Part shown: in pieces, positions 16,708 through 20,965 of the stretch
How the letters are laid out: every line of letters begins with the position of its first letter
How positions within the stretch are numbered: position 1 is the first letter of the stretch
NCBI GenBank assembly: GCA_021203365.1
Contig: JAJQBI010000021.1
Coordinates: 1-64,000, forward strand
DNA from: Clostridiales bacterium
GTDB taxonomy: Bacteria > Bacillota > Clostridia > Lachnospirales > Lachnospiraceae
Reading direction: 5' to 3'
DNA length: 64,000 nt
Notes under the pieces: model-generated
Told to the model about the DNA's origin: nothing
Database searches by the model: none
What the model saw: only the letters and a program-made list of their open reading frames with translations
Made by a program: the position numbers and the translations under genes

Positions 16708-17403
16708 TCACAATTCATCTTCCCGAAAATCCCTGAAAGCTTCTCCCTCCGGGAAAGTCTCAAAACACATTTTTTCTCCGCCGACCGGGTGAAAAAATGT
16801 CAGACGGAAGGCACACAGGCCCAGAGGTACGCTTTCTTTCTCTGCAGGATTATATTTCCGGTCTCCCAGAAGAGGCATTCCCCTCCCCGACAGCTGGACA
16901 CGAATCTGGTGATGACGTCCTGTTTTCAGGCATATTTTCAGAAGGTACTTTTCCTCCCCGCCCGAGGACTGCCTTACTCCCAGCACATGATAGGACAGCT
17001 CCGCCCGTTTTGCTCCCGGGGTCCCACGTGACACAGAGACGGAGCTGTTCCTTCTCCCGTCTTTTTTCAGATAATCCACAAGCACATCCTGTTCCTTTGG
17101 AGGCTTTCCCCGGGTCACTGCCAGATATTCCTTAACCATACAGCCCTTCGTCATCTGCTTTGCCAGGTCTGCGGCGGAAGCCGATGTTTTGGCAAAAACC
17201 AGAAGTCCCTCCACAGGCTGGTCCAGCCGGTGAACCACTCCAATATATGGGGAATTTTCATGATTTTTTAAAGCGAGATAATTTCGAAGCCCGCTTTCCA
17301 GATCCGGCGTTCCCACACGCGCGCACTGTACAGCCAGACCTGCCGGCTTTCTGTACACCAGAATTTCCTTATCCTCATAAAGGATCCGCTCTTCCACACC
17401 CAC
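16708..17403 (-). CDS. RluA-family RNA pseudouridine synthase
   Basis: About 231 residues. The catalytic motif HRLDQPVEGLLVFAKT with its active aspartate is intact, and the TGRHHQIRVQL motif of the fold is present. There is no S4 RNA-binding domain, as in short RluA/YqcB-like enzymes. I prefer the GTG at 17403, nine bases behind GGGGGAGG, over a TTG farther upstream. It isomerises uridine in rRNA or tRNA; the exact site is not predictable. Confidence 0.88.
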   Translation of the reverse strand: MGVEERILYEDKEILVYRKPAGLAVQCARVGTPDLESGLRNYLALKNHENSPYIGVVHRLDQPVEGLLVFAKTSASAADLAKQMTKGCMVKEYLAVTRGKPPKEQDVLVDYLKKDGRRNSSVSVSRGTPGAKRAELSYHVLGVRQSSGGEEKYLLKICLKTGRHHQIRVQLSGRGMPLLGDRKYNPAEKESVPLGLCAFRLTFFHPVGGEKMCFETFPEGEAFRDFREDEL

Positions 17404-17488
17404 TTTTGTCCGCCTCCCCCGCAAAAGTTTCTCAAATCAGAATCTCTCGGCATAAAGCCGCTTTTTTAGACAGCTGAAAGTATATCAC

Positions 17489-17542
17489 AAAAAAATAAGA
17501 CGGTCATCATTTTTTTCTGACTTCAAAAATGATGACCGTCTT
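17489..17542 (-). terminator. long perfect terminator hairpin of the candidate RNA
   Basis: An 18-bp perfect stem (17497-17514 with 17525-17542) and 10-base loop is followed on the minus strand by ATTTTTTT. It does not belong to either flanking gene: the pseudouridine synthase starts downstream of it, and aconitase already has its own terminator near 18650. Confidence 0.85.
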
Positions 17543-18474
17543 AAAATTCTTCGTTATTCAATTTTTCTACCTCGTTTTTTAAATCAAGCCTTATCTTTAA
17601 CCGGAATTTTCTCGTTCTATCTATCCATAAAACCTGTCCCGATTCTCTCTATTCAGATGTTGTAATTCCGTTCCTCGTATATATTCTACATATCTTTTCT
17701 TATTTCCTGCTCATAAACGATATGATATTATAACCACTCGATTATTTAGAAAGTTTTACAGATTTTGAATCATAATTCACGGGTTATGATTCATTTATAT
17801 TCAATTGGAAGAAATGTCGGCTATACTTTTTCCTCTTTATAAACAATTTCGAACTTAACTGATTAAATCTAAAACCGCTTATCTTTTCTGCTTTGCTTTC
17901 CGGATTGCCTTCCGGTAAAGTAAGCCGTTTATATACACCTGTTCGCTATATTCAGTATACCTACTGGAAAAAGTTCCTGGTTCCATTCTTCTGTCTTAAT
18001 ATCTTTCTTCAGATATTCTTCTGATGCAAAGCTTCAACCCACACCCTTTTGGTTCTGATCTGGATTTCAAAATATCGTTCTCATCTGTCCGAATTCTTCT
18101 CAGGTATTGTTCCCCCTGATGAATTATCGCGATAAGGGTTATACTCTTTCTGAAAAAGTTTCTTTACACTATTTCGGAAATCTTTGTATCAGGTCTGTGA
18201 CATCTGTTCAATATGAAAAACCGATTCTATAATTACCTTGGATACGTCTCTGCCCCGCTCTCTCTTTCTTATCATCTGTCGGAGAGTCCTCTCTGGCTGT
18301 TCTTCACGGATACTTCGTATCAGGTCTTTCTCGCAGGAAATCCGGTTCCTGTCACATTCATATTGAGGATTCTGTTATGCTTTTCCCAATGGAATCACCT
18401 TTCCTTTCTATAACCTTTTCCTTTGTTCTTAATACTCTGGATAGGTTTTTTGTTTTTCTCTCTTGTTTTTTGAT
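17489..18474 (-). ncRNA. candidate large structured non-coding RNA, about 0.98 kb
   Basis: This interval has no credible reading frame on either strand, is visibly more AT-rich than its neighbours, and on the minus strand is purine-rich. It is bounded by its own strong promoter (18481-18509) and its own 18-bp terminator. In between I find perfect local hairpins: 17767-17775/17784-17792 (9 bp), 17900-17904/17911-17915, 17999-18005/18011-18017 (7 bp), 18309-18313/18317-18321 and 18334-18339/18346-18351 (6 bp), a 12-bp palindrome at 18124-18135, and a repeated 15-base motif (one mismatch) near 18182 and 18313. Size and architecture recall large ornate RNAs such as ROOL, GOLLD or OLE, but I cannot assign it to any of them. 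A decayed gene remains the alternative. Confidence 0.5.
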
Positions 18475-18480
18475 GAGTTT

Positions 18481-18509
18481 ATAATAACACTTCCGGGCTA
18501 ATTTGTCAA
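18481..18509 (-). promoter_or_regulatory. near-consensus promoter of the candidate RNA
   Basis: On the minus strand a perfect TTGACA (18504-18509), a 17-base spacer and TATTAT (18481-18486), with a run of A/T immediately upstream resembling an UP element. This is among the strongest-looking promoters in the window, and it reads into a region without genes. Confidence 0.8.
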
Positions 18510-18644
18510 CACATTTTTTGATTATTTTTAAAATAAATTATTTTTTGTTATTTTAGTTTTTATCTAAACTGTTAATTGTCTATATTTTCTATTATTTTTT
18601 GAATATTTAAACAAATACAGCGACTCAATCCGCCAAAGAGCCTG

Positions 18645-18705: not shown

Positions 18706-20965
18706 TTATTTCCGGTTGTAATTAATAAGACATCCCCTGAGAATAATCTGCCGTTCATGGTCTGTGAGATCGCCCAGAGTTACGGCAAATTCCCTTAATG
18801 AACCGTCACGGACCGTATAAACCTTAATCTCATCGGCTTTCTCTTCCACAGCTCTGCGAATACCAGGAATAAAAAGGTAGTCCCCATTGCAGAAGGGAAG
18901 ATCTCCCCCTGGAATCAGAAATGGAAGCATTCCCCAGTTGATCAGATTGGAACGGTAACGCTTGGTGGCGTACTCGTTGGCAATATTGGCCCAGCCTCCC
19001 AGAACCTTCTGGCAGGAGGCCGCCTGCTCCCGGGCGGAACCGTCGCCCGGCTTTACCGCAAATATGGTACTGCCCACACCAAGGCTGTCTCTTCCCACAT
19101 CCGGCCAGGTCTTTTTGATGGTGTCCATCACCGGCTTCAGCTCAGGAAGCGCTTCCGCCGGACACCGGTCTTCCTGGATGGCCTTCTGTGCCTTCTGTAC
19201 CTCCTTGGCCCGTCCCACATAGGCCGGATCCTTTCTGGAGAGGGTAAACTCCGCCAGGCCAAGAGGGTTGGAACGGTAAGAGGAGGTTTCCCCGGATGGA
19301 ATCAGCTCATCTGTGGTGGTTACCGGATCATGGATTTCCGACACCACCTTCAGCAGCAGGTTCTCTGCCAGAGGCGGCATCTCCGGCCAGTCCTTGATGT
19401 TTGGACCAAACTGGATCTCCACACTGGGATCCGCCACACCTTTGCTGTCAAAAACCCGATTCTCATAGATGGATTTATCAAAATAATATTTCGGGCAGCG
19501 GTATTCGCCTGTGTATTCCTCCGCGGAAGTCAGAAAGCCCCTGTTTGCTGCGGTTGCGGCGATGGATCGGGCATCCATGAGCGCCACCGAGGAAATCTGG
19601 CCGTTCTGAATTTTGGAGCCTTCACGGTTGGGGAAGTTCCGGGTGGCGTGACGAATGCTGAGGGCATTGTTCGCCGGGGTATCTCCGGCCCCAAAACAGG
19701 GACCGCAAAATGCAGTTTTCACCACGGCGCCGGTTCCGATCAGCTCCGCCAGAACCCCGTTTTTCGCCAGCTCCATATAAATGGGTGTGCTGGCCGGATA
19801 TACGCTGAGTGTAAAGGCATCCGCGCCGATATGCGCCCCCCGGAGAATATCCGCGGCGGCACAGATATTTTCAAACCCGCCGCCTGCGCAGCCGGCGATA
19901 ATTCCCTGCTCCACATAAAGCTTTCCGTCTATCACCTTATCACGAAGCGTATAGGGAACCTTCCCGTCCAGACTGACCTGGGCTCTCTTTTCCACATCCG
20001 CAAGGATATCATCCAGATTTGCCTTCAGCTCGTCAATGGTATAGGTGTTGCTTGGATGAAAAGGCATGGCGATCATGGGTTTGATCTCACTCAGATCGAT
20101 CTCCACACAGCCGTCGTAATAGGCAATTTCCCCCGGCTTCAGCTCTTTGTAGGCTTCCTCCCTGCCATGAATCTCATAAAATTCCCGGATCTTCTCATCG
20201 GTCTGCCAGATGGAGGAAAGGCAGGTCGTCTCTGTGGTCATGACGTCGATCCCGATGCGAAAATCCGCGCTTAAGCCGGCCACGCCGGGGCCCACAAATT
20301 CCATTACCCTGTTTTTCACATAACCATTGCCGAATACCCTGCCGATAATGGCCAGCGCCACATCCTGGGGCCCCACTCCCGGACGGGGACTTCCCTTCAG
20401 ATAAATGGCGATGACACCGGGCATGGGAATGTCATAGGTCTGGGACAAAAGCTGTTTTACCAGCTCGCCGCCCCCCCTCTCCCATGGCCATGGTTCCCAG
20501 CGCGCCGTAGCGGGTGTGACTGTCCGACCCCAGAATCATTTTGCCGCCCTCGGCCAGCATTTCTCTTGCAAACTGATGAATCACAGCCTGATGAGGCGGC
20601 ACATAGACACCGCCATACTTTTTCGCACAGGTGAGACCAAACATGTGATCATCCTCATTGATCGTCCCTCCCACTGCACAGAGGGAATTATGGCAGTTGG
20701 TCAGCACATAGGGGATGGGAAATTTTTCCAGGCCGGACGCCCGGGCCGTCTGGATAATACCCACGAAGGTGATGTCATGAGAGGTCAGTTTATCAAATTT
20801 AATCTGGAGCTTCTCCATATTATCAGAGGTGTTATGGGATTTCAGGATGGACCAGGCGATGGTGTTCTGACAGGCCTGTTCTCTGGACACGGGGAGGTTT
20901 GCCTCATTTTCCGGAATAATGTCCCGGCCGTTTTTCAGAAAGATGCCGCCGTCGTAGAGTTTCAT
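18706..20965 (-). pseudogene. aconitate hydratase, interrupted by one frameshift
   Basis: The enzyme interconverts citrate and isocitrate with a 4Fe-4S cluster. The N-terminal part (20965 to about 20475) and the C-terminal part (about 20470 to 18706) are in different frames. The change occurs at seven G (20471-20477 on the plus strand): removing one G gives continuous [17 protein letters not shown] and an ordinary full-length protein of about 752 residues. All landmarks are present: [47 protein letters not shown] and NREGSK, with the CxxC cluster ligands. So the gene is either functional with a sequencing error or very recently broken. Preceded by its own promoter and a folded leader. Confidence 0.88.

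Follow-up and report, generated by a model that had tools for sequence, protein, structure and literature searches.

To our knowledge, few classes of bacterial RNA approach 1 kb in length. Two of them, ROOL and GOLLD, are carried by phages or prophages, frequently close to tRNA islands, and both, like OLE, form homo-oligomers. The dual-function RNA RNAIII of Staphylococcus aureus is also long and structured and contains a short ORF with its own ribosome-binding site. In the parts of PMC12286853 that deal with them, ROOL, GOLLD and OLE are described as RNAs of 0.5–1 kb with extensive covarying structure that includes a pseudoknot; they are counted there among the best described large RNAs, and their functions are said to remain poorly understood. 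The same parts state that ribosomes bind GOLLD in pull-downs and that OLE could sequester RpsU (PMC12286853). STAB-SD elements, as in the cry3A leader, bind the 30S subunit and block RNase J1 according to the portion of PMC4113751 that treats them.

The window, by which we mean the whole 64-kb stretch of DNA that was analysed, which comes from a gut bacterium of the genus Blautia, contains on its minus strand a transcription unit (17489–18509) located between an aconitase gene and a gene for an RluA-type pseudouridine synthase (Table 1). Comparison of homologous loci shows this putative unit to be conserved, with a covarying core, a predicted ribosome-binding site and a short frame that would run beside or through the core. 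We read its product as a free-standing structured RNA of about 1 kb that represents a new Lachnospiraceae family, is engaged by ribosomes and would act in trans, and we assign this reading a probability of roughly 0.6.

Like ROOL, GOLLD and OLE, the RNA is about 1 kb in length and has a covarying core structure with a pseudoknot. Unlike them, it is mostly present as one chromosomal copy, is syntenic within Blautia, has no adjacent tRNA genes and has a strong Shine–Dalgarno (SD) sequence and a short ORF beside its core. There is no tRNA gene in the 64-kb window or in the 57 loci studied from other genera; the association of ROOL and GOLLD with phages or prophages and tRNA islands is not seen here. 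An identity as a phage element was rejected because no phage record matches the interval and no viral contig has the Blautia pattern; three viral contigs have the family pattern, one of them a true copy at the edge of a prophage. In L250 (1–1860), which is a viral contig, and in L222, the 3′ end of the RNA gene marks the beginning of a prophage that carries a tyrosine-integrase-like gene. Since the sequence there diverges by eye from close relatives inside the terminator stem, the 3′ end of the RNA may be a phage attachment site.

No Rfam 15 model matches the interval at the gathering threshold, and ROOL, GOLLD and OLE are absent among the 18 Rfam matches obtained up to an E value of 10; no match was found either in 12 relatives at the gathering threshold or in four relatives at E = 0.1. 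The weak matches to the interval (FasX at E = 0.03, and others) fall below their gathering scores, many of them on the terminator hairpin, and were taken as chance. An earlier note on this DNA had proposed an orphan structured RNA, either a diverged member of a class such as ROOL, GOLLD or OLE or a new one. The orphan character is supported by the covariation and by the absence of a kept protein frame, two points on which the note had said that it could fail, and by the lack of an Rfam match; as Rfam gives no match in the interval or its relatives, 'new' is favoured and descent from one of the three named classes finds no support in Rfam. The sole gathering match in the window is a Clostridiales-1 RNA (RF01699; 22546–22709, minus strand, 121.9 bits), which is likewise a Clostridiales RNA but is 166 nt long, occupies a separate locus and does not match this interval. 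A literature search of titles and the beginnings of abstracts, with full text mainly from open-access papers, found no description of the RNA. The 3161 gut motifs of 27–219 bp reported in the part of PMC8040213 that describes them could include pieces of it, and the word Blautia is absent from the main texts of PMC8040213 and PMC11109978. Assignment to the large structured RNAs is well supported; we call this a putative new family within that known kind of bacterial RNA, with a ribosome-engaged design that appears to be unusual.

Table 1. Positions of the features discussed, numbered along the window.
Feature	Position	Strand	Remark
RluA-type pseudouridine synthase, neighbour	16708..17424	-	Pfam PF00849
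Promoter-like site of rluA itself	17507-17479	-	-10 at 17479-17484; 9/12 matches
Candidate RNA	17489..18474	-	Predicted start near 18474 to end of terminator T-run; blocks conserved in 57 aligned Blautia sequences
Intrinsic terminator, 19-bp stem	17496..17543	-	Arms 17496-17514 / 17525-17543, 10-nt loop, then T-run
Probable micro-ORF2, TTG AAT AAC GAA GAA TTT TAA	17541..17561	-	Stop is the first three bases of the terminator stem
GAGGT, probable SD of micro-ORF2	17569..17573	-	Read from sequence and alignment
3′ domain: covarying hairpin, then (U)UCUAA...UUAUGAGCAGGAAAU	17696..17796	-	Alignment A2; pairs 631-656, 635-652
Core for covariance models R1 and R3	18151..18406	-	
Hairpin motif GUGUAAAGAAAC, covarying stem	18158..18169	-	Pairs 343-356, 337-362 (family-wide alignment)
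Pseudoknot, 3′ strand	18197..18202	-	UGUCAC in window, UACCAC in most other genera
Helix P1, 3′ strand	18208..18217	-	Covariation
Pseudoknot, 5′ strand	18350..18355	-	GUGACA in window, GUGGUA in most other genera
Helix P1, 5′ strand	18357..18366	-	Covariation
Micro-ORF1, TTG GGA AAA GCA TAA	18375..18389	-	4 codons and stop in window
SD1: AGAAAGG, 3 nt, GGTGATTCC	18391..18409	-	Extended complement of 16S rRNA 3′ tail
Promoter TTGACA-17-TATTAT, TG before -10	18481..18509	-	11/12 matches
Aconitase, C-terminal part, neighbour	18706..20448	-	Pfam PF00330

Transcription unit and distribution

The alignment of 57 Blautia sequences shows conserved blocks over the whole unit, the promoter and the terminator included. 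The minus-strand promoter sequence described in the earlier note is confirmed: the aligned −35 hexamer is TTGACA in all 57 and the best −10 lies at a spacing of 17 nt in 56 of them. Promoter-like sites are common here (11 in a 3-kb region, with 4.3 expected in shuffles), which makes the match weak by itself; it is strong by virtue of its conservation across Blautia. The terminator, noted before as an 18-bp stem with a T-run, is a perfect inverted repeat of 19 bp; a simple terminator scan with a loop limit of 8 missed this hairpin and returned four others, with 3.2 expected. Substitutions in the stem preserve pairing within Blautia, and the stem sequences differ in other genera. A terminator-like hairpin, picked by a script that may have chosen wrongly in some cases, is present in 53 of the 57 non-Blautia loci; its end lies 348–817 nt downstream from where the core begins.

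Among the lesser signals listed previously, the duplicated 15-base motif (18182–18196 and 18313–18327, 93% identical) and a 12-bp palindrome, read from the sequence, are both present. The 'five perfect local hairpins' could not be reproduced, the repeat search giving one inverted repeat of at least 12 nt. The folding energy with the terminator has a z score of −5.6 (20 shuffles); without it the value is −3.4, and that of the opposite strand is −3.0 (60 shuffles each). As the opposite strand folds nearly as well, folding energy alone says little. The unit exceeds chance by conservation and covariation, not by single-sequence signals.

A blastn search of 64 Blautia genomes gave matches in 57, and loci were fetched from 58 Blautia genomes besides the window's own, making 59 loci; two of these (L110 and L111), which represent one copy split over two contigs, were left out of the Blautia alignment. 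One blastn match (G035) is a chance match without a counterpart in the R3 search, and two genomes missed by blastn (G008 and G032) hold the RNA. The core is found in 58 of the 64 genomes, namely 57 of those fetched, as scored by R3, and the window's own; the six Blautia genomes without the RNA stood outside the covariance-model search. In the window's own genome the interval is single copy, a second match being the other arm of the terminator.

Of the two covariance models of the core, R1 was built from alignment A1 (40 of the 57 aligned Blautia sequences) and applied at E ≤ 0.1, and R3 from alignment A4 (53 family-wide sequences, comprising 46 of the 57 non-Blautia loci and seven from Blautia) and applied at E ≤ 0.01. 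Of 397 Lachnospiraceae genomes, 61 are positive for the core with R1 and 87 with R3, the latter spread over 73 of 334 genera, so that the family occurs in about a fifth of the genomes examined from this major gut group. There is one R3 match per genome in 83 of the 87 positive genomes. Two copies of the core were seen in some genomes, about 3 kb apart in one (G386, contig C24, 101790–102055 and 104632–104901) and on separate contigs, C7 and C12, in another (G169). Searches at the level of the order (295 genomes) and the class (391 genomes) gave ten and three positives, all of them Lachnospiraceae. In the searches done the family is confined to Lachnospiraceae, a limit to be read with the number of genomes from other families in the order and class sets not given. 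The model of the 3′ domain (R2) performs poorly outside Blautia, matching 15 of 64 sources at E ≤ 1.

The covarying core

The predicted core comprises two helices (P1 and P2), a third that is weaker (P3), a hairpin and an H-type pseudoknot. Covariation within Blautia was evaluated on 53 sequences, four short ones having been dropped, with a tree-based null model of our own implementation that follows R-scape. RNAalifold proposed 143 pairs for the Blautia alignment. A test confined to these 143 gives 18 significant pairs; a test of every column pair gives three at E ≤ 0.05, two of them nested and one in the pseudoknot (E = 0.05). In the family-wide alignment the five top-scoring of all column pairs have E ≤ 0.01 and lie in P1, P2 and the hairpin, and the two listed pseudoknot pairs are not significant in this all-pairs test (E values of 2 and 43).

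In A4, from which the structure itself was written, 88.5% of cells are paired, compared with 74.7% in shuffles and 32–41% when slid, and two-sided changes occur in 21 of 28 pairs; its pseudoknot has standard pairs in 100% of cells and two-sided changes in three of five pairs. In 20 held-out loci used in no model (alignment A5), 91.5% of cells pair, the nested helices being fitted by the model. The A5 pseudoknot, which lies outside the model and whose columns were picked by eye, pairs in 98.3% of cells, and three of its six pairs show changes on both sides. The weakest helix is P3, with about 71% of cells paired in both alignments. The covariation analysis of homologues suggested in the earlier note thus came out in favour of structure: it supports three short helices and the H-type pseudoknot and, less strongly, a fourth helix. 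This support applies to the core of the 1-kb RNA. RNAalifold proposes an alternative in which the UCAC closing the pseudoknot is paired instead with the SD (GGTGA), so that the SD may compete for it. In the 3′ domain, the (U)UCUAA...UUAUGAGCAGGAAAU element presumably resembles the 11-nt tetraloop receptor.

Two further elements were seen by eye. Where a TPR-like gene follows the RNA (for example in L201, L208, L218 and L227), a conserved CUCCGAUU close to the 3′ end shows complementarity to AAUCGGAG of the core and, in part, to the SD; a long-range helix or switch is possible. A (G/A)ACGAGAAA string recurs in hairpin loops of the 5′ part or the 3′ domain of non-Blautia members (L173, L174, L178 and L207); in Blautia a similar hairpin carries CCGUGAA.

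The main alternative named beforehand was a decayed purine-rich gene, and the RNA strand is indeed purine-rich (0.61 on average inside the RNA) and without a long ORF. The core is, however, kept with covariation in 73 genera, and no protein frame is conserved on the RNA strand in the 57 Blautia sequences. The covariation and the absence of a kept frame led us to reject this alternative, which we regard as next to impossible. No minus-strand ORF of at least 40 residues with an ATG, GTG or TTG start lies inside the interval. The longest ORF on the RNA strand has a median of 39 residues, compared with 40 in a reversed control, and at most nine of the 57 share the phase of an ORF of at least 40 residues at any one column (12 in the control).

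For the opposite strand, the corresponding median is 63 residues against 52 in the control, and the longest ORF reaches at least 60 residues in 33 against 17 of the 57; the phase of an ORF of at least 40 residues is shared by 27 of 57, against 21 in a composition control. This strand is pyrimidine-rich and has few stops. The longest plus-strand ORF inside the interval (66 residues, 18213–18413) was dismissed as a protein, its length being congruent modulo three in 18 of 57 and free of in-frame stops in ten. No conserved protein is evident to us on this strand, where phase sharing is close to the control value; the excess above the control is explained only in part. In a scattering of loci, L177 and L199 among them, an opposite-strand ORF of at least 90 residues overlaps the RNA. 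The earlier statement that the interval has 'no credible ORF' holds in that no long ORF is kept on either strand; it fails to cover a strong predicted ribosome-binding site and a very short ORF, often accompanied by a second.

Ribosome-binding site and short reading frames

Directly 5′ of P1, the Blautia layout is AGAAAGG-n-GGTGATTCC-(ATG/GTG/TTG). The 16S 3′ end GGCTGGATCACCTCCTTTCT is present in two of three Blautia genomes searched. A duplex scan ranks SD1 first among the anti-SD sites of the RNA in all 55 Blautia sequences scored (two of the 57 have too little upstream RNA), with a mean of −19.7 kcal/mol; it also ranks first in 50 of the 57 non-Blautia loci, where it is mostly AGGAGG-like.

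An ATG, GTG or TTG start for micro-ORF1 is found in 56 of 57 Blautia sequences, followed by TAA (30), TAG (20) or TGA (6), and the ORF has exactly three codons in 46 of the 56. A stop within seven codons occurs in this frame in 52 of 56 sequences, compared with 19 and 13 in the other frames. In the 57 loci from other genera ORF1 ranges from 2 to 35 codons with variable first residues, and in most of them it covers the 5′ halves of P1 and of the pseudoknot helix in a single frame (QYxSG). The start lies mostly 24 or 27 and sometimes 30 nt from P1. This distance is divisible by three in 47 of 55 non-Blautia loci and in 16 of 20 held-out loci, and, where ORF1 reaches P1, in 41 of 44 and 16 of 19, respectively. 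In Blautia, ORF1 reaches P1 in four of 56 sequences and the distance drifts between 22 and 26 nt, being a multiple of three in 30 of 56. These frame counts omit one Blautia sequence of 57 (no start) and two of the other 57 loci (no recognised P1) and are non-independent owing to shared ancestry. By eye the consensus P1 can be read without a stop in another frame too, and the P1 frame is therefore not explained by avoidance of stops. We take this as translation through P1 in most genera, with the constraint probably lost in Blautia, where ORF1 was presumably shortened.

One rival explanation treats the locus as the mRNA of a short peptide with a very long structured 3′ part, the ORF1 peptide (MDN...QYVSGMA... 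or MG...QYESG...) being the product that the structure only controls. It would account for the AGGAGG-type sites with their start codons and for the conservation of the frame through QYxSG in most non-Blautia loci. It sits poorly with the Blautia sequences, in which 46 of 56 ORFs have three codons and yet the RNA core is kept, and with the variable lengths and first residues elsewhere; the conserved QYxSG, moreover, coincides with the covarying strands of P1 and the pseudoknot. We consider it rather unlikely.

A second rival takes the RNA as a structural molecule of the ROOL, GOLLD or OLE kind, a multimer or scaffold, in which SD1 binds the 30S subunit to block a 5′ exonuclease and any translation is incidental. 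The size, fold and pseudoknot agree with this, as do the resemblance of the extended complement of the 16S tail to STAB-SD (PMC4113751, in the portion on these elements) and the binding of GOLLD by ribosomes stated in the relevant part of PMC12286853. SD1, however, lies about 65 nt inside the predicted transcript, being closer to the 5′ end in relatives such as L084, and the conservation of frame outside Blautia together with the interchange of start codons points to real translation. This explanation we hold to be doubtful, if somewhat less so than the peptide mRNA.

Both STAB-SD and SD1 are SD-like complements to the 16S 3′ end within a long RNA, and the complementarity is observed here; SD1 differs in preceding a conserved start codon and a short ORF inside a free-standing, terminated RNA. 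The conserved start codon speaks against a purely non-translated, STAB-SD-like role. With RNAIII, compared here through Rfam alone, the RNA shares length, structure and a short ORF with a ribosome-binding site, but the ORF overlaps the core helices in most non-Blautia loci and has mostly three codons in Blautia. The interchange of start codons, the SD and the conservation of frame support translation of the short ORF; a regulatory role in trans, as in a dual-function RNA of this type, may accompany it.

A second short frame, micro-ORF2, lies at the 3′ end. In Blautia it starts with TTG in 55 of 57 sequences and has six codons in 51 of these 55, with TAA (27), TGA (18) or TAG (10) as the stop, located at or in the base of the terminator stem. 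Candidates picked by script, some wrongly as judged by eye, occur in 28 of the 57 non-Blautia loci, 21 of them with six codons, and start with TTG (25), ATG (2) or GTG (1). The other two frames also stop within seven codons (51 and 55 of 55) and many non-Blautia loci keep AATTAAATA without a start codon, so the conservation may partly serve the RNA. That micro-ORF2 is a genuine ORF is probable, if short of proven.

Three other candidates were set aside. A GTG or ATG followed immediately by TAA or TGA is kept in 54 of 56 sequences and was not counted as an ORF, since it belongs to the hairpin motif and its closing pair covaries. ATGAGCAGGAAATAA forms a four-codon frame in 30 of 46, with a stop that is not kept elsewhere. 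In two Blautia loci, an inverted extra copy of micro-ORF2 and the 5′ arm of the terminator lies some 400 nt upstream (L072, 2860–2906; L073, 3154–3200); it was rejected as a paralogue, being a short inverted fragment.

Proposed mode of action and neighbouring genes

In the mechanism we propose for a ribosome-engaged RNA, a 30S subunit or ribosome would load at SD1, immediately 5′ of the core. In other genera the translating ribosome would open P1 and the pseudoknot; in Blautia, where the ORF mostly has three codons, it would park just before them. The supply of ribosomes would then determine how the RNA folds and how long it lasts. The 3′ micro-ORF of Blautia and many relatives may place a second ribosome against the terminator. 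The RNA itself would act in trans as a ribosome-engaged structured RNA. The statements on 30S binding by STAB-SD, on GOLLD and ribosomes and on OLE and RpsU make ribosome engagement plausible rather than demonstrated. As a tentative generalization, which we would not yet rely on, there may be a class of large trans-acting ribosome-capturing RNAs with an unusually strong anti-SD site and a minimal ORF near one end and, in Blautia and many relatives, a second micro-ORF at the terminator, the two being separated by a ribosome-gated pseudoknotted body.

If ribosome capture is the correct reading, the RNA would be a sensor of translation capacity or an RNA that tethers ribosomes, and the peptide would be dispensable, having eroded to three codons in Blautia. 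The overlap of frame and pseudoknot in most genera, set against three codons in Blautia, would be a natural experiment that separates ribosome engagement from the peptide and makes the dealings of large RNAs with ribosomes directly testable. Its occurrence in species available in culture, Blautia luti and B. schinkii among them, together with one match in nearly every positive genome, makes deletion and structural work possible.

A third rival explanation concerns the genes around the RNA. Of 58 Blautia loci, 49 have rluA downstream on the same strand and 46 have aconitase upstream, several of the remainder being truncated by the end of a contig; an RluA-type gene also follows in ten of the 57 other loci. 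Together with the position of the micro-ORF2 stop at the terminator stem, this arrangement would suit a long leader or attenuator that acts in cis on the gene behind it (rluA in Blautia), in which ribosomes at micro-ORF2 melt the terminator and RNA polymerase passes. However, rluA has its own promoter-like sequence after the terminator and is on the other strand in one Blautia locus, and many non-Blautia loci have no micro-ORF2 start. Elsewhere the downstream gene is TPR-like (19 of 57), is something else or is on the opposite strand; an aconitase-like gene is upstream in 13, and in the remaining loci other genes adjoin on both strands. One RluA-like and one TPR-like member among these neighbours were checked against Pfam. 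A constant downstream gene, as expected of a cis-regulatory leader or attenuator, is thus not found across Blautia and the 57 other loci, and we judge this explanation very unlikely. As the neighbours differ between loci and strands, the RNA is better described as a free-standing gene than as the leader of any one gene.

In the window, the aconitase gene appears at 20432–20448 as two overlapping ORFs in different frames, possibly through a frameshift or an assembly error; in a relative (L178) it is a single ORF.
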